A stretch of 64,000 nucleotides of DNA from Methylocystis hirsuta (GTDB lineage Bacteria > Pseudomonadota > Alphaproteobacteria > Rhizobiales > Beijerinckiaceae). Position 1 is the stretch's first letter; every line of letters starts with the position of its first letter. The stretch lies in contig NZ_QWDD01000001.1 of assembly GCF_003722355.1 (NCBI RefSeq), forward strand, positions 124,001 through 188,000, in the 5' to 3' direction. Both the position numbers and the translations under genes were made by a program. Shown here piece by piece: positions 53,839-62,061 of the stretch. The notes beneath the pieces were generated by a model. It had not been told where the DNA came from. It saw only the letters and a program-made list of their open reading frames with translations, and searched no databases.

Positions 53839-55671
53839 ATGACGACTCCAATCGAGCGTATCATCATACGACATCTGTCGGGCTCCAAAGCCAATCAGAT
53901 CGAACAGCTGCCCGTCGGCGACTCGCGCGAATTCACCATCGGCCGCGATCCCGCGTCGAAGATCGCTTTCGATCCTGTCGGCGACAGCGTCGTCAGCCGC
54001 AAACACGCGCTCATCCGCATAATGGGCGAAGGCGACAATATCTCCTTCAAGCTCTCGGACGCCGGCAGCAGCAATGGCACCTTTCTCAATGGCGAGCGGG
54101 TGAGTGGCGAAGTCGAACTTCTTCCCGAAGACACGATCGAACTTGGCGCCAAGGGTCCGAAATTCACCTTCGACGTTCAGCCGCGGCCGGCGAATTTCGC
54201 CGCACGAACGAAGGTCATCGGCGTCAGCGACACGGCGGCGACGCGCGTGATCAAAACGGCGGAAGTCGCCGCCTCGACCGCGGTGAACGCCGCAGCGACC
54301 GGCGCCGGCACGGCGAAAGGATCGAGCGACGACGGCGCAGCGCCGAAGAAGAGCGGCATCGGCCATGAGACTGTGCAGCGACTCATCGGAGAAGAGCGCG
54401 GCAAGGCCACGCGCACCATGACCGGCGCGATCGCCGCAGTCGTCGCCTTCTTCGTGCTGGGCGGCGCGGCGCTCTATTGGGCGCAGCATCGCGAGCTCGA
54501 GCGACGAGACGCGGAAGACAAGCTCGCCCAAAACGAGACGGATGAACGACTGTCGCGCATCCCGGACGACGTCAACAGCAAGATCGGCATGAAGCCGCGC
54601 GAAATCTACGACAAGTTCGCGAAGGCGACCGTTCAAATCGGCATGATGTGGCGCTTATATGATAAGCAGACCGGACGGCCGATCCAGCACAAGACCGTCG
54701 ATTACAAGGGTCGGCGCTATCCCGCCTATGTGCAGCTGCCAAATAATCTCGGCATTGTGCGCTGGCTGACGCTGGAGGACGACCACATCACCAATCTGAT
54801 GGTCGGCGGCGGCGGCTCCGGCAGCGGCTTCGTCATCAGCGAGCAGGGCTATATTCTAACGAATAAGCATGTCGCCGCCGGCTGGCAGGTCGGCTATGGC
54901 GCTGAAGGCGGCCGAGAGGGCATTCTCTACGACTATGTCGTGGTCACGTCGGGGAAAAAACGCAAGGCCAAAATCAAGGAGCCGAAGATCATCGATCTCT
55001 ATGACTCGGCCTATGCCGACGTGTTCCACTGGGTTCCGGAATCCGGCGGCTACATCTTCAAGACGGACGATCCGACGACGGCGCTCGCCGGCAATACGCC
55101 GGATCCAAACTCAAACAACAAGGCGTCTTTCGTCGGCCGCAATGAAGTTCTCGAGGTCAAGTTCCACGGCAGCCGCTTGGGCGTGAACGCCAGTCTGGTG
55201 CGGACGTCGCCGGACGCCGACGCGGCGCTCATGAAGATCGACTCGCCCCAGACTTTGACCAAGGTGGAGATGGCGCCCAACGCCGCCGTCGAGATCGGCG
55301 AGAACATCACCGTGCTCGGCTATCCCGCCGTCTCGGTCGAAAATTTCGTGCTGCGGCAAACGGAAGAGCGCGGCCGCATTCGCAGCCAGCTCGAAAAGAT
55401 CACCGAGGCGACCGTCACCGAAGGCATCGTGTCGAAGACCGCGAGCGGCGTGAAGTCGACCGAAGGCGGCACCTTCGCCAGCGACATGGGCGACGTTTAT
55501 CAGCTCAGCGTCGTCGCCACCGGATCGGGCAACAGCGGCGGTCCGGTGTTCAACTCCTCCGGCAAGGTCATTGGTCTGTTCACCTACAGCCGCAATGTTG
55601 GCGACACCAAAGCGACCATGGCGGTGCCGATCAAATATGGCGCCGAACTCACCCAGGCGCAGCGCGAATAG
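53839..55671 (+). CDS. FHA-domain transmembrane trypsin-like serine protease
   Basis: A 610-residue protein. Residues about 20-115 are an FHA domain (FTIGRDPASKI, VVSRKHALIRI, SNGTFLNGERV), which binds phosphothreonine. A linker follows, then one transmembrane helix at about 195-214. Residues about 255-605 are a trypsin/DegP-like protease with GSGSGFVISEQGYILTNKHV (His344), TSPDADAALMKID (Asp near 461) and GSGNSGGPVFNSSG (Ser566). The FHA part should face the cytoplasm and the protease the periplasm. It heads an operon with a PP2C phosphatase and a Ser/Thr kinase. Confidence 0.9.
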   Translation: MTTPIERIIIRHLSGSKANQIEQLPVGDSREFTIGRDPASKIAFDPVGDSVVSRKHALIRIMGEGDNISFKLSDAGSSNGTFLNGERVSGEVELLPEDTIELGAKGPKFTFDVQPRPANFAARTKVIGVSDTAATRVIKTAEVAASTAVNAAATGAGTAKGSSDDGAAPKKSGIGHETVQRLIGEERGKATRTMTGAIAAVVAFFVLGGAALYWAQHRELERRDAEDKLAQNETDERLSRIPDDVNSKIGMKPREIYDKFAKATVQIGMMWRLYDKQTGRPIQHKTVDYKGRRYPAYVQLPNNLGIVRWLTLEDDHITNLMVGGGGSGSGFVISEQGYILTNKHVAAGWQVGYGAEGGREGILYDYVVVTSGKKRKAKIKEPKIIDLYDSAYADVFHWVPESGGYIFKTDDPTTALAGNTPDPNSNNKASFVGRNEVLEVKFHGSRLGVNASLVRTSPDADAALMKIDSPQTLTKVEMAPNAAVEIGENITVLGYPAVSVENFVLRQTEERGRIRSQLEKITEATVTEGIVSKTASGVKSTEGGTFASDMGDVYQLSVVATGSGNSGGPVFNSSGKVIGLFTYSRNVGDTKATMAVPIKYGAELTQAQRE

Positions 55672-55689
55672 CAAAGGGTCCGTCTTCCC

Positions 55690-56568
55690 ATGACGGCGAA
55701 CCGGCCAGCAGCCCCGTTGCGCATCGCAGGCGCCATCCGCACGGATGTCGGATGCGTCAGGCAGCTCAATGAAGACTCCGTCGCCTTCATCGCAAGCGCC
55801 GGCCCCTCGCAGGCTCGCGACTACGGCGCGCTCGCGCTTGTCGCCGACGGCATGGGCGGCCACGCCGCCGGGGAGGTGGCGAGCGCGCTCGCGCTCGAAG
55901 TCGTGCGGCGCGTCTATTATTCGCTCGACAAGATCCCCTCCGAGGCGCTGCGCGCCGCTTTTGACGCCGCCAATCGGGCGATATTCGACTACGCCGCCAA
56001 ACATCCTGACTGCGCCGGCATGGGGACGACCTGCACGGCGATCGGCGTCAGGGACAATCTTCTATGGCTGGCGCATGTCGGCGACAGCCGCGCCTATCTG
56101 ATGCGCGACGGACAGCTGACTCAGCTTTCCGACGATCAGACGCTGCACGCGCAATTGGTGCGCGACGGCGTGATGTCGCCGGAGGACGCAGGCAAAGGCG
56201 CCGGAAGCAATGTCATTTTGCAGGCGCTCGGCACGCGTCTCGACGTCGAGCCGACGATCTGGACGGAAGGCCTGCCGCTGCGACAGGGCGACATCGTGGT
56301 CTTGTGCTCCGACGGTTTGACCAATCTCGTCTCCGACGCAAGGATCGCCGAAGTGGTCTCAAAAAACCCGCCGCCGGAGGCCTGCCGGCTATTGATCGAA
56401 GCCGCGCGCCGCGGCGGCGGACACGACAATATTTCAGTCGGCGTCTTTGTGGCGGAGCCCGACGCCGCCGATCGGACCGCCGATCAAGCGGCGACGAAGC
56501 GGATTAACATCGCCGACCCGCCGACGGGCGCCCTCACGGCGAAGATCGACGCCATCGCAGAGGGTTGA
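55690..56568 (+). CDS. PP2C-type Ser/Thr protein phosphatase
   Basis: A 292-residue soluble phosphatase. The metal-binding residues are visible in VRQLNEDSVAF, LVADGMGGHAAGEVAS, LWLAHVGDSRAYLMRDG and LCSDGLTNLVSD, followed by GGGHDNISV. It should remove phosphate from Ser/Thr in targets of the kinase three bases downstream. The C-terminal 30 residues are a short polar tail. Operon spacing: 18 bp after the FHA gene. Confidence 0.95.
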   Translation: MTANRPAAPLRIAGAIRTDVGCVRQLNEDSVAFIASAGPSQARDYGALALVADGMGGHAAGEVASALALEVVRRVYYSLDKIPSEALRAAFDAANRAIFDYAAKHPDCAGMGTTCTAIGVRDNLLWLAHVGDSRAYLMRDGQLTQLSDDQTLHAQLVRDGVMSPEDAGKGAGSNVILQALGTRLDVEPTIWTEGLPLRQGDIVVLCSDGLTNLVSDARIAEVVSKNPPPEACRLLIEAARRGGGHDNISVGVFVAEPDAADRTADQAATKRINIADPPTGALTAKIDAIAEG

Positions 56569-56571
56569 GCC

Positions 56572-58281
56572 ATGACCGACCCGCAGATGATCGGACACTA
56601 TCGCATCGTCAAGCTGCTCGGCGTCGGCGCGATGGGCAAGGTGCACGCCGCGCTCGACACCTTCCTCGAGCGCGAAGTGGCGATCAAATCCCTGCGCGCG
56701 GAACTCACGCAGGATCCTGATTTCGTCGGGCGATTCCGCGCCGAAGCGACGAGTCTCGCCAAACTCAACCACCCCAACATCACGACGCTCTATTCGCCGG
56801 TGCTGGAGGGCAACGACCTTTACATGGTCATGGAGCTCGTAAACGGCCGGCCGCTCGACGAGATCTTGAGGGAGCGCGGCAAGCCGCTCGGCGTCAAGGA
56901 AAGTCTCGCCGTCATCGCGCAGGCTGCGGATGGACTCGCCTATGCGCATCAGATGGGCGTTATCCATCGCGACATTAAGCCGTCGAACCTGATGGTCGCC
57001 GACGACGGGCGAATCAAGATCATGGATTTCGGCATTGCGCGGGTGCGCGGCAGCGTGCGTCTGACTCGCGCCGGCACGGCGGTCGGCACGCCGCTTTACA
57101 TGTCGCCGGAGCAGTGCCGCGGCGGCGAAGGCGACGAGCGCAGCGATCTCTATTCGCTGGCCGTCGTGCTTTACGAAATGCTTGCCGGCGCGCCGCCCTT
57201 TTCCGGCGCGACCGAATATGACCTCACCCAGGCGCAGATCCACGCCGAGGCGCCGCCGCTCGTGCCGCGCATATCTGGCGTGACGCCGGAACTTGAATCG
57301 GCGATCATGACGGCGCTGTCGAAGCGGCCCGAGCAGCGGTTCCCGAACATGCGCTCCTTCAGCGACGCGCTCGGCGCCACGGCGCTGCGCATCGACGCCT
57401 CGAGCATTGTTCGAAGCGCGGGACATCTTGTCCAGGATTCGACGGCCGAGCGCGACGTGCCGACGCCCGAGCACATGTCGACGAAGCTTATCGCCCTTGC
57501 GAAAAGTCGCAGCGCGACGCTCGTGCGCCGCTTCAAGCGGCTGCATCCCGCCGCTCAGGGCGCTTCACTTGGCGTCGCGGCCGCGGCGCTCGCCACGTTA
57601 GCTTTTCTCGCGCTGATCGAGCCGTCGTCGCCAGCACGGGACGAACGCCAGACCCGAACCGATTCAGGCGACGGCGACCACCGCCCCATCAGCAGAGTCA
57701 ACGATGAGCCCCTCCAACCGCGCGGCGACTGCAATTCTCAGTTCGCGACGCGGAACGATCCTTTGGGCTGCAATTGGCGCCAGCCGTCCTCGTCAAGCTC
57801 GAGCGCTTCGATTTACGACCTGCGCGCGGCGATGAAGGATCGCGGGCGATGGGACATCGCCTTCCCTCTTGCGCAAAAACTGGCGGAGTCCGGCGATAAG
57901 GAAGCGCAGTATCATCTCGCCACGCTCTACGCGAAGGCGCCGGGCCGGCAGAATTTCTCGGAGGCTTTCAACTGGTTCAAGAAATCCGCGATGCAGGGCT
58001 ATGCCGACGCGCAGGCCTCGCTCGGCGTCATGTACAAGGACGGCATGACGCCCGACGGCAGGCAAGACCCGACCGAAGCCTTGCGTTGGTTTCAGCAGGC
58101 GGAAACGCAAAACAACGGCAGGGCCCAATATTGGCTCGGCGAAGCCTATGAGAAGGGCTTGGCCGGACTGGACGTTAGTCGCAGCAAGGCCGAGGAGCTC
58201 TATTACAAGGCGAGTCTCCAGGATGTCCCCGACGCCGCCGAAGCCTTGCAGAGAATCAAGCGGCGACGCGGCCGGCGCTAG
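56572..58281 (+). CDS. Transmembrane Ser/Thr protein kinase with Sel1 repeats
   Basis: A 569-residue Hanks-type kinase. The kinase domain (about 10-270) has the glycine loop LLGVGAMGKVHAA, Lys39 in EVAIKSL, HRDIKPSNLM, DFG at 152-154 and GTPLYMSPEQ. One transmembrane helix lies at about 331-349. The periplasmic part has a low-complexity linker and Sel1-like repeats (AQYHLATLYAK, ADAQASLGVMYKDG, AQYWLGEAYEKG), which bind proteins or peptidoglycan partners. It starts 3 bp after the phosphatase gene. All catalytic residues are present. Confidence 0.95.
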   Translation: MTDPQMIGHYRIVKLLGVGAMGKVHAALDTFLEREVAIKSLRAELTQDPDFVGRFRAEATSLAKLNHPNITTLYSPVLEGNDLYMVMELVNGRPLDEILRERGKPLGVKESLAVIAQAADGLAYAHQMGVIHRDIKPSNLMVADDGRIKIMDFGIARVRGSVRLTRAGTAVGTPLYMSPEQCRGGEGDERSDLYSLAVVLYEMLAGAPPFSGATEYDLTQAQIHAEAPPLVPRISGVTPELESAIMTALSKRPEQRFPNMRSFSDALGATALRIDASSIVRSAGHLVQDSTAERDVPTPEHMSTKLIALAKSRSATLVRRFKRLHPAAQGASLGVAAAALATLAFLALIEPSSPARDERQTRTDSGDGDHRPISRVNDEPLQPRGDCNSQFATRNDPLGCNWRQPSSSSSSASIYDLRAAMKDRGRWDIAFPLAQKLAESGDKEAQYHLATLYAKAPGRQNFSEAFNWFKKSAMQGYADAQASLGVMYKDGMTPDGRQDPTEALRWFQQAETQNNGRAQYWLGEAYEKGLAGLDVSRSKAEELYYKASLQDVPDAAEALQRIKRRRGRR

Positions 58282-58292
58282 CTGGCGCGCCG

Positions 58293-58601
58293 TTAAAGCC
58301 CGCCTTTGCTGAATTGTCCGCCGCCGCCAGAACCGCCGCCACCGCCGCCACCGCCATGACGGTGACGGTTCGCGACATGTACGCGTCCGCGATGACGCGC
58401 ATAGTGGGGCCGCGCATGATAGTGGTGATAGCCGCCGTAATGGCGCCGACGAAAGCGAAACCCTCCGAGCATCGCGCCAATGAGACCCAGCTGCGCGGAT
58501 GCCGGCTCCGGCTCCAAAACGACAAGAGGCAGCGTGAAAGCGCCAAGCAAGAGAGCTCGGCGCGAAAGCCGACGGTCGGCGCCGTCGTCATTGTCAGTCA
58601 T
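58293..58601 (-). CDS. Exported His/Gly-rich mini-protein
   Basis: A 102-residue protein on the opposite strand, ending 11 bp from the kinase stop. It has a twin-arginine-like signal (RRLSRRALLLGAFTLPLVVL...ASA) and a mature part rich in His, Arg and Tyr (GGYHHYHARPHYARHRG), then a poly-Gly stretch. The His-rich region could bind metal ions. Short, low-complexity exported proteins of this type are common in Rhizobiales; none has a firm function. Confidence 0.65.
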   Translation of the reverse strand: MTDNDDGADRRLSRRALLLGAFTLPLVVLEPEPASAQLGLIGAMLGGFRFRRRHYGGYHHYHARPHYARHRGRVHVANRHRHGGGGGGGGSGGGGQFSKGGL

Positions 58602-59853: not shown

Positions 59854-60009
59854 GTCAAAACAATCCCCTCTTCGCTGCGCACGAAGCAAAGCTCAAGCAT
59901 TGAGTCTTGATCTTGGTCGCTGTTTGGCCACGTATTAGCCATTCATTATCGTTTAAATAAGAAATTCGCCTTAGTACCGAAGGTGCTCAACCGCAGTTTG
60001 GAGCGGCAC

Positions 60010-62061
60010 ATGCGCTTGCGAACGCGCTCTCGCGCCCGGCTTTTTTCGAAGGTGGCGGTGACCGCCGCCGCGGCGCTCGGCTTTGCGCAGACGCCCGTCA
60101 TGGCGCAGGGCTATTATTTCTGGGGCGACCGCGAGCCTCTCATCAATGCGGTTCCGGCGCCAGAGCGCGTCGTGCGGCCGCAACGCCCGGCCGCACGAAA
60201 AAAAATCTCCCGTCCGGCGACCGACAAAAGCGGCGCGGCGTCTCTGCCCGACGCCAAGCCCGAGGTTGCAAAGCTCGACCGGCCGCTCTTCGTCATCGCC
60301 TCCATCGCCGACCAGCAGATGTCGATCTACAACCATAGCGGCCTCGTCGCCCGTTCGGCGATCTCGACAGGCGTCGCCGGACATCCGACGCCGAAAGGCA
60401 TTTTCACCGTCATCGGCCGCGAACGGTTCCACCGATCCAACATCTATTCAAGTGCGCCGATGCCGTTCATGCAGCGGATCACCTGGTCCGGCATCGCCAT
60501 GCATCTTGGGGTCGTGCCGGGACATCCGGCCTCGCACGGCTGCATCCGGCTTCCCGCCGCATTCGCGGCGAAGCTCTGGGGCATGACCAGAATCGGCGAG
60601 CGGGTCGTGATCTCGCCGCACGACGTGTTTCCCGCCGAATTCGAACACCCATTGCTGCCCGCGCCTAAAATGCGCGCGTCCGCGGAAGCAGAAAAAGGCG
60701 CGCCAGCGGCCGGCTCTGAACCGCCTCTCCACGTCGCAGAAGCTCGCCCCGCGATCGCTCCGCAGCCGCAGGCGGAGCAGCCCAAAGCCGACGCTGACGG
60801 CAAAACGGCTGGAGCCGCCACGCCGACCGCCGATCTGCCACAGCCCTCCCCCGTCGAGGCCGACGCGCCTGCCGCCGATTCGCAGCGACACGCCGAGCAG
60901 CCCAAGGCGGACGCCGGCGCTGAGGTCGCTTCGGGCGACGCAGCCGCGCCCGCGGCAGACCAGCCGCAGCCGGCGCTCGACGCCGCCGACGCGCCCGCCG
61001 CTAAGATCGAGCAGGATGCGGAGCAGTCCAAACTCGGAAATGTGGCAAACAAACCGGCGTCATCGGCTCCCTCAAGTCCAGCCGCCGTCGCCGAACGGCT
61101 GACGGTGAATCCGCGCCAATATGCCCAGCAGCTCAAGGCCAAGGCCGTGGCTGAAGCCGCCGACGCCAACAGGGCCGTCAAGGCTTTGTCAGCCGAAGTG
61201 GGAATCAAGCGAAATGAGGCCGCGCGCGCAGCGGCGGCGCTCCGCGCAGCAGAAGCCGCGCAGGCCGCGGCCCGCGCTAGAGCGGACGCGGCCGCTGCAT
61301 TATCCGCCGCTGCAACGGCGGCGGCCGACAACCAGCAGGAGCCGGCCGTAACGGCGGAACGCAGCGCGTCGGCGGGCGATGCGCTGGCGAAAGCCAATGC
61401 CGACCGCCTGACGAGAGCCTATGGTAAAGCGCTCTTCACTCAGGACGCGGCGCTGCAGGCGAAAATCAACGCCGACTCCGCGCTTGCGGAAGCCACGGCA
61501 AAGCTCGAACAGGCGAGAACGGCCTTCGCCGCCACTGACTCGGATCTGGCGGACGCCGACCGGCGTTTGGAGGAGGCGAGAACGACCGCCGCCGCCGCCG
61601 CAACCGCTCAAAGAGAAGCCGAGCGCCGCATAACGCCCATCTCTGTGCTGATCAGCAAGAAGGATCGGCGGATCTATGTTCGCCAGGCCCTGTCGCCGCT
61701 TTTCGACGCGCCAATCGAGATCCGTGATCCGAGCGCGCCGCTCGGCTCGCATCTTTATATTGCGACGGCGGCCAAGGAGGACGGGAGTTCGCTCAAATGG
61801 TCGGTCGTCTCGATGCCGGAGGCGCGGACCGAGCGCAGGAAGAATTTGGCGTCGGCCGACGCTAAAGCCGACATATCCTGGGATTGGCGCCCCTCCGGCG
61901 CGAGCCCGTCCGAGGCTTTGGAGCGCGTCGACATTCCAAAAGACGTTCGCGAGCGGATCGCGGAGCGGCTGTGGACTGGGGCGTCGCTCATCATCTCGGA
62001 CCAGCCGGTCAGCGGCGAGACCGGAAACGACGGCACGGATCTGACGATCAAATTGCGCTAG
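60010..62061 (+). CDS. Large L,D-transpeptidase with coiled coil and second YkuD-like region
   Basis: A 683-residue exported protein. A signal peptide (KVAVTAAAALGFAQTPVMAQ) is followed by a YkuD domain (about 90-215) with the catalytic MHLGVVPGHPASHGCIRLP (Cys near residue 178). Residues about 230-370 are Ala/Pro/Glu-rich with repeated AEQPKAD units. Residues about 380-590 are Ala-rich coiled coil. The C-terminal region begins ISVLISKKDRRIYVRQALSP and resembles a second YkuD fold without the catalytic motif. It should crosslink peptidoglycan or attach proteins to it. ATG 60010 has GGAG 6 nt upstream; GTG 59983 is less likely. Confidence 0.9.
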   Translation: MRLRTRSRARLFSKVAVTAAAALGFAQTPVMAQGYYFWGDREPLINAVPAPERVVRPQRPAARKKISRPATDKSGAASLPDAKPEVAKLDRPLFVIASIADQQMSIYNHSGLVARSAISTGVAGHPTPKGIFTVIGRERFHRSNIYSSAPMPFMQRITWSGIAMHLGVVPGHPASHGCIRLPAAFAAKLWGMTRIGERVVISPHDVFPAEFEHPLLPAPKMRASAEAEKGAPAAGSEPPLHVAEARPAIAPQPQAEQPKADADGKTAGAATPTADLPQPSPVEADAPAADSQRHAEQPKADAGAEVASGDAAAPAADQPQPALDAADAPAAKIEQDAEQSKLGNVANKPASSAPSSPAAVAERLTVNPRQYAQQLKAKAVAEAADANRAVKALSAEVGIKRNEAARAAAALRAAEAAQAAARARADAAAALSAAATAAADNQQEPAVTAERSASAGDALAKANADRLTRAYGKALFTQDAALQAKINADSALAEATAKLEQARTAFAATDSDLADADRRLEEARTTAAAAATAQREAERRITPISVLISKKDRRIYVRQALSPLFDAPIEIRDPSAPLGSHLYIATAAKEDGSSLKWSVVSMPEARTERRKNLASADAKADISWDWRPSGASPSEALERVDIPKDVRERIAERLWTGASLIISDQPVSGETGNDGTDLTIKLR

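Follow-up and report, generated by a model that had tools for sequence, protein, structure and literature searches.

Sequence comparisons across several phyla indicate that the genes for an FHA domain-containing protease, a PP2C-type Ser/Thr phosphatase and a membrane-bound Ser/Thr kinase form a conserved module, often with a second kinase, and that a similar threonine motif recurs in apparently flexible parts of the three proteins. In our best reading, which in our judgment has an even chance of being correct, the operon as a whole encodes one signalling unit spanning the inner membrane, in which a circuit of kinase, FHA domain and PP2C switches the protease. A phosphothreonine relay had already been proposed in a sequence-only reading of the same DNA, and this idea is partly supported and right in outline: the gene set is kept and a T-R/K motif is common to the three proteins, and from these features we infer the phosphorylation itself. 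The linker threonines with the shared motif and the scale of the conservation are new to that outline.

In the window, which is the whole 64,000-nucleotide stretch of Methylocystis hirsuta DNA and was annotated here beyond its first 48 kb, the three open reading frames lie on the plus strand in the order and with the spacing described before, 18 bp separating the FHA-protease from the PP2C gene and 3 bp the PP2C from the kinase gene. The first gene (53839..55671) codes for a 610-amino acid protein composed of an FHA domain, a disordered linker, a single transmembrane helix and an HtrA-like trypsin-fold protease without a PDZ domain. Pfam matches to FHA (1.2e-15) and Trypsin_2 (7.2e-21) within this one protein confirmed that the two domains are fused. 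The FHA domain comprises residues 33-103 (53935..54147), the linker about residues 118-194 (54190..54420), the transmembrane helix, placed with close relatives and the predicted structure, about residues 194-217 (54418..54489), and the protease domain, assigned by Pfam, alignment and fold match, positions 54814..55656. The second gene (55690..56568) encodes the PP2C-type phosphatase (Pfam, 1.1e-14, and NCBIfam). The third (56572..58281) encodes a 569-amino acid protein with a kinase domain (Pkinase, 7.7e-51), a transmembrane helix at about residues 331-349 (57562..57618) and Sel1 repeats (9.7e-19), which form an ectodomain (57817..58275) predicted to be periplasmic. Convergent with the kinase gene, the minus strand carries the gene of a His/Gly-rich exported mini-protein with a twin-Arg-like export signal (58293..58601).

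The sequence-only reading had stated that all catalytic residues are present, and an alignment of 56 proteins (those of 55 loci described below plus that of the window) bore this out for the protease triad, with H344 conserved in 56, D461 in 54 and S566 in 56 proteins, and for the phosphothreonine pocket of the FHA domain, with R36 in 56, S53 in 46, H56 in 56 and N79 in 54. AlphaFold2 predicted a folded FHA domain, disorder in the linker from residue 125 to 194 (pLDDT < 50), a long helix containing the transmembrane segment and a mostly well folded protease part. The first 50 Foldseek matches of the latter were nearly all DegP, DegS, HtrA1 and their kin (E 2e-11 to 3e-10), and DegS chains were among the best PDB matches. 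No PDZ domain was found by the Pfam scan of the FHA-protease, and the chain ends at residue 610, just past the protease domain. One transmembrane segment was predicted in 51 of the 55 proteases and a second hydrophobic segment in four; the predicted topology places the FHA domain in the cytoplasm and the protease in the periplasm. A protein search yielded 696 homologs at E ≤ 0.001, and FHA and trypsin domains occurred together in 119 of the 120 homologs listed, the remaining one being marked partial, so that the fusion, earlier called unusual, is not peculiar to this genome. Close homologs also came from Methylocystis, that of M. rosea (L001) being 95% identical to the window protein. A published characterisation of the fusion or of the gene set was not found in the literature searched, with subscription papers and bioRxiv lying outside its scope.

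The question of whether the three genes are kept together, raised by the sequence-only reading, could be answered in the affirmative. Genomes were scanned with a protease-only alignment, and the best 80 matches gave 77 loci, 55 of which contained the whole protein in one frame. L061 to L077 (weak, protease-only or partial matches) were discarded, as were L012, L053, L054, L057 and L059 (split between frames, partial or truncated); L012, L054 and L057 likewise have PP2C and kinase genes downstream. The 55 loci were chosen by the FHA-protease alone, and partners were scored in the 5.5 kb downstream if encoded by the same strand. Among these loci from the best 80 matches, 52 of 55 had both PP2C and kinase, in the order FHA-protease, PP2C, kinase in 30 cases, FHA-protease, kinase, PP2C, kinase in 19 and other orders in three; an extra kinase was present in 20 of the 55. 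The remaining three comprise two loci with a kinase and no PP2C and one with neither. Two of the exceptions (L021 and L030) are contig ends, 80 and 334 bp past the protease, whereas L043 is a real one, with a kinase and no PP2C match. In a hold-out set of 18 loci on contigs differing in length from the discovery contigs, 17 had full proteases and all 17 had PP2C and kinase downstream, as did L224 with its shorter match. Three of the 17 proteases were more than 85% identical to discovery proteases and 14 were below 80%. Omitted from the hold-out were 7 of 12 loci in one set, whose contigs equal discovery contigs in length, and six genomes of the Pyrinomonadaceae order with partial matches only.

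Three threonines in the linker of the FHA-protease are nearly invariant. In 70 aligned proteases the median top-residue frequency of the linker was 0.31, compared with 1.0 for T178 (codon 54370..54372, GIGHETVQRL), 0.94 for T124 (54208..54210, ARTKVI) and 0.93 for T135 (54241..54243, AATRVI); the positions at which the window protein has its seven further linker threonines fell between 0.10 and 0.37. The residue following T124 and T135 is mostly Arg or Lys (Arg at 0.83 and 0.76, respectively), whereas T178 is invariant and falls outside this T-R/K rule. Similar motifs occur in the last kinase of the loci between the catalytic domain and the transmembrane helix, e.g., as KETRLG repeats, and near the C-terminus of PP2C, e.g., VTREVEAL. 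In the window they are represented by T304 of the kinase (57481..57483, MSTKLIAL), directly after a stretch predicted to be disordered (residues 288-303), and by T269 in the PP2C tail (56494..56496, AATKRINI).

Enrichment of the motif was determined with representatives clustered at 70% (40 linkers, 32 last kinases, 36 PP2C tails and 13 extra kinases) against composition-keeping shuffles; three PP2C tails (L029, L042 and the short fragment available for L020) were excluded. The pattern T[RK].[VILMF] was found 47 times in the linkers (8.8 in shuffles, sd 2.9) and 21 times in the PP2C tails (2.4, sd 1.5), and T[RK][VILMF] 30 times in the juxtamembrane segment of the last kinases (4.3, sd 2.2). 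The latter pattern was rejected for the PP2C tails (3 vs. 2.5 expected), which fit T[RK].[VILMF] instead. No enrichment was seen in the extra kinases (T[RK][VILMF], 0 vs. 1.0; T[RK].[VILMF], 1 vs. 1.0), and the control motifs S[RK], T[DE] and [RK]T were not enriched over shuffles. The patterns had been set after viewing the discovery set and were held fixed for the hold-out, where the motif occurred in 17 of 17 linkers (4.0 expected), 12 of 17 kinases (2.9) and 9 of 17 PP2C tails (1.1), and in the 14 loci below 80% identity in 14, 10 and 6 cases (3.3, 2.5 and 0.8). The signal of the PP2C tail was thus weaker in the hold-out, several tails from Spirosomataceae reading PTE.I or similar. In PP2C proteins elsewhere in the order, the motif was absent from all 18 tails of at most 70 residues, for which fewer chance occurrences are expected because they average only about 13 residues; the nineteenth short tail, which was positive, is that of the operon itself. 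A long PP2C tail outside the operon, that of L132, did contain the motif (TRIV); this genome has an FHA match close by. Other kinases outside the operon contained the motif in 2 of 16 cases (1.5 expected).

FHA domains recognise phosphothreonine, in many cases with selectivity for the residue at position +3, and HtrA enzymes are commonly trimers. We propose that the membrane kinase would sense the envelope through its variable ectodomain, aided by a lineage-matched exported protein, and would phosphorylate the T-R/K threonines of its own juxtamembrane segment and of the FHA-protease linker. The FHA domain could then bind these phosphothreonines within and between molecules and cluster protease and kinase, and clustering would assemble the membrane-anchored HtrA-type protease and thereby turn it on in the periplasm. 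Once phosphorylated, the motif of the PP2C tail may be docked by the same FHA domain, and PP2C would reset the switch. The circuit would correspond to DegS with its PDZ sensor swapped for a cytoplasmic phospho-reader. A whole-genome search found a single FHA match in this genome, as was the case in 2 of 12 other genomes tested, which makes the phosphothreonines of the operon itself the likeliest FHA ligands here. The genome contains another PP2C-kinase frame, which could cross-talk with the operon. With somewhat less than even confidence, we suggest a trans-envelope system of several phyla, in which a shared phosphothreonine code (T-R/K with an aliphatic residue at +2 or +3), written by the membrane kinase and present on writer, reader-protease and eraser, would lead to FHA-held clusters that switch a DegS-like periplasmic protease, interchangeable sensor ectodomains being paired with exported proteins of the envelope.

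The direction of the signal is a part of this proposal that we infer, and conservation of the neighbours alone also fits a protease acting on the kinase. The last kinase contains HRD and DFG/DLG in 50 of 52 loci and is cut before these motifs in the remaining two. It has one predicted transmembrane helix in nearly every complete case (exceptions: L034, just under the threshold; L058, short; L037, whose kinase domain contains a second segment). The extra kinases have HRD and DFG in 20 of 20 loci and PEGA matches in six. The C-terminal segment of the last kinase varies: Sel1 repeats, after which the sequence-only reading named the kinase, occur in 11 of 48 and represent one ectodomain type among several, Pro-rich segments being among the others. 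Similarity clusters group 13 ectodomains from Bacteroidota/Balneolaceae and five that are SNase-like in appearance, and Pfam scans of ten ectodomains gave sub-threshold matches only, including SNase (E 0.021, in one of these five) and TrbI (0.0031). The next gene after the last kinase on the same strand encodes an exported-looking protein in 31 of 47 usable loci, compared with 25 of 139 control ORFs, as called by a crude hydrophobicity rule and with spurious ORFs in the control set; with this protein and the extra kinase, the module often has more genes than the "three-gene" set described at first. Eight exported neighbours that were scanned included an outer-membrane beta-barrel, 17-kDa/glycine-zipper lipoproteins and sub-threshold TPR matches. 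In alphaproteobacteria with Sel1 kinases, a convergent exported ORF with a twin-arginine-like start is found instead (L001, L002, L003 to L007 and the inverted locus G034). That the mini-protein is a substrate of the protease is a guess, and it could equally be a ligand. By eye, the kinase ectodomains of L032 and L052 resemble a portion of the exported protein that other Acidobacteriota encode downstream.

The main rival to our reading is a reversed flow, in which the periplasmic protease acts upstream and cleaves the kinase ectodomain or an exported partner, the FHA domain merely joining kinase and protease. The kinase ectodomain is predicted to face the same compartment as the protease, the juxtamembrane motif would allow the FHA domain to hold the kinase, and ectodomain type and exported neighbour co-vary by lineage; since both types follow phylogeny, their pairing is no independent evidence. 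We nevertheless regard a reversed flow as unlikely, because several ectodomains from Acidobacteriota resemble low-complexity, Pro-rich tails without an obvious fold, yet protease and linker threonines are conserved, and because the motif within the protease's own linker would be left unexplained.

We also consider it rather unlikely that the threonine motif is a structural or docking site rather than a phosphosite and that the genes share only a promoter. The invariance of T178 without a T-R context would fit such a role, as would the presence of T-R/K in kinase activation segments, both within the module and elsewhere. The activation segment contains T-R/K in 31 of 48 last kinases (four were not parsed and three were parsed incorrectly), 8 of 20 extra kinases and 4 of 13 controls, counts to which we attach little weight. 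Against it, the T-R/K sites lie within or beside predicted disorder, and the side-by-side arrangement of kinase, FHA domain and PP2C makes phosphothreonine the obvious currency.

The full protease was present in 14 of 37 genomes of the genus (our own included, and some of the others incomplete) and in none of 24 genomes from other families of the same order, all 61 genomes giving a weak match of some kind, in most cases to the protease part. PP2C and kinase adjoin the protease in all 14 carriers, some genus genomes being apparently identical to records among the scan loci. In one carrier (G034) the pair is inverted; this locus had been considered a decayed copy, with one TGA inside the match and the partners missing from the short locus, until the partners were found adjoining in inverted orientation in 20 kb. 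The TGA appears to be a natural stop, because the open frame stops at the end of the match. Counting in each case the genome around which the set was drawn, prevalence was 15/81 in the family of Spirosoma, 6/198 in the Xanthobacter family and 15/119, six of them partial, in a Pyrinomonadaceae order. With the full profile, the class-wide count was 1/385 genomes, our own one only, from a scan that scored three candidates per genome at a strict threshold and may have missed some; the module therefore seems to be rare and patchily distributed, not a core feature. In the genome scan with the protease alignment, the carriers belong to what we take to be Alpha-, Beta- and Gammaproteobacteria, Acidobacteriota, Bacteroidota, Balneolaceae and two sulfate-reducer families. 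Such a patchy distribution (14 of 37 in the genus), together with good scores of the kinase against the PADLOC PD-T4-6 kinase models, a match at the HMM level, might suggest a phage-defence module in which the kinase senses infection and the protease kills. This is improbable in our view: the kinase matches many other kinase models, so that the PD-T4-6 score is unspecific, the protease is weak against PADLOC (best 1.5e-11, RT-Protease), the five neighbour proteins scanned with Pfam are LeuA, an abhydrolase, YkuD, VIT1 and a cupin, and the ectodomains are predicted to face the periplasm.

Among known systems, DegS, the inner-membrane HtrA protease of the sigma-E pathway, shares with the FHA-protease the N-terminal transmembrane anchor and the periplasmic trypsin-fold protease. 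The FHA-protease has the trypsin fold and His-Asp-Ser triad that characterise HtrA/DegS, but differs in the missing PDZ domain, the cytoplasmic FHA domain before the membrane segment and the link to kinase and PP2C, and it scores below the NCBIfam HtrA cut-offs (degP_htrA_DO, 60.6 vs. 416.2; DegS, 29.7 vs. 422.95). MarP-type serine proteases are likewise membrane-anchored and trypsin-like, with a multi-TM anchor and no FHA domain, and the NCBIfam MarP score was 34.7 (cut-off 250). The kinase scored 300.2 against the Stk1 PASTA family (cut-off 450), PASTA being absent from its Pfam matches, and PP2C scored 216.6 against Stp1/IreP, narrowly below the cut-off of 230. Kinase-kinase-phosphatase (KKP) clusters also combine two kinases, a PP2C and FHA; as described in the parts of the KKP report drawn on here, they are prophage-encoded, their kinases carry CSD and FHA domains, PP2C precedes both kinases and a protease is not mentioned (PMC11341870). 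In contrast, neither CSD nor FHA was among the Pfam matches of the module's kinases, the FHA domain sits on the protease, and two-kinase loci usually have PP2C between the kinases. In GarA/OdhI, conserved threonines outside the FHA domain are phosphorylated by Ser/Thr kinases (PMC12321487). The operon resembles these metabolic regulators in its conserved threonines outside the FHA domain, but the GarA/OdhI motif is ETTS and N-terminal to the FHA domain, whereas the T-R/K motifs follow it and recur in kinase and phosphatase. Intramolecular binding by the FHA domain is reportedly a feature of GarA/OdhI. In the passages used of a survey of conflict systems in eLife (PMC7159879), FHA and trypsin domains are mentioned separately and not as a fusion.

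The threonine phosphorylation pathway of type VI secretion (PpkA-PppA-Fha) likewise comprises a membrane kinase, PP2C and an FHA reader, the last binding a PpkA-dependent phosphothreonine of the membrane protein TssL in the portion of PMC3953482 consulted, whereas the output here is a protease fused to FHA. That the operon is a relic or offshoot of this pathway, as the same three signalling domains and the kinase-FHA-phosphatase logic might suggest, is highly improbable, since FHA is fused to the protease throughout the 55 loci and the marker VipB (PF05943) had no match in the whole M. hirsuta genome, while being matched in E. coli among 14 control genomes; judged by this one marker, the earlier statement that no type VI secretion genes are present holds. 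In our reading the operon would work like DegS combined with the signalling logic of type VI secretion or of GarA, but by the tests run it belongs to neither the DegS family nor the type VI secretion pathway.

The input and output of bacterial Ser/Thr kinases are often unknown. The module described here brings candidates for receptor, reader, eraser and enzymatic output into a single conserved set of genes and adds a short motif that points to residues for testing, and the single FHA match in the M. hirsuta genome offers a clean setting for such work. If our reading is right, cytoplasmic protein phosphorylation would command a periplasmic protease.

In genome G034 (locus L108, contig C301), the genes for the PP2C phosphatase, the kinase and the mini-protein are flipped together relative to the FHA-protease gene, and the inverted block still adjoins the latter. 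The FHA-proteases of the Accumulibacter loci L028, L033 and L039 have about 100 additional residues, and in the genome of L028 (G484:C90) the protein carries two FHA matches in tandem.

Shortly 3′ of the module, the window encodes a YkuD L,D-transpeptidase (59983-62061) whose C-terminal part is long and rich in Ala. At two further FHA-protease loci, L011 (12885-13598) and L060 (12852-13676), a gene for a second, exported-looking trypsin-like protease lies 3′ of the lipoprotein gene. This protein is related to the protease domain of the operon and has no FHA match; the two proteases could possibly form a protease cascade.

Use of the T-R/K threonine motif may extend beyond the module, as another PP2C (L132, G057:C1:824226-824576), which has an FHA match about 2 kb away, contains TRIV within its 98-residue tail. 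The M. hirsuta genome itself encodes a second PP2C (G000:C1:652441-653787), which is fused to a kinase domain in a single 571-residue frame and is a possible cross-talk partner for the module.
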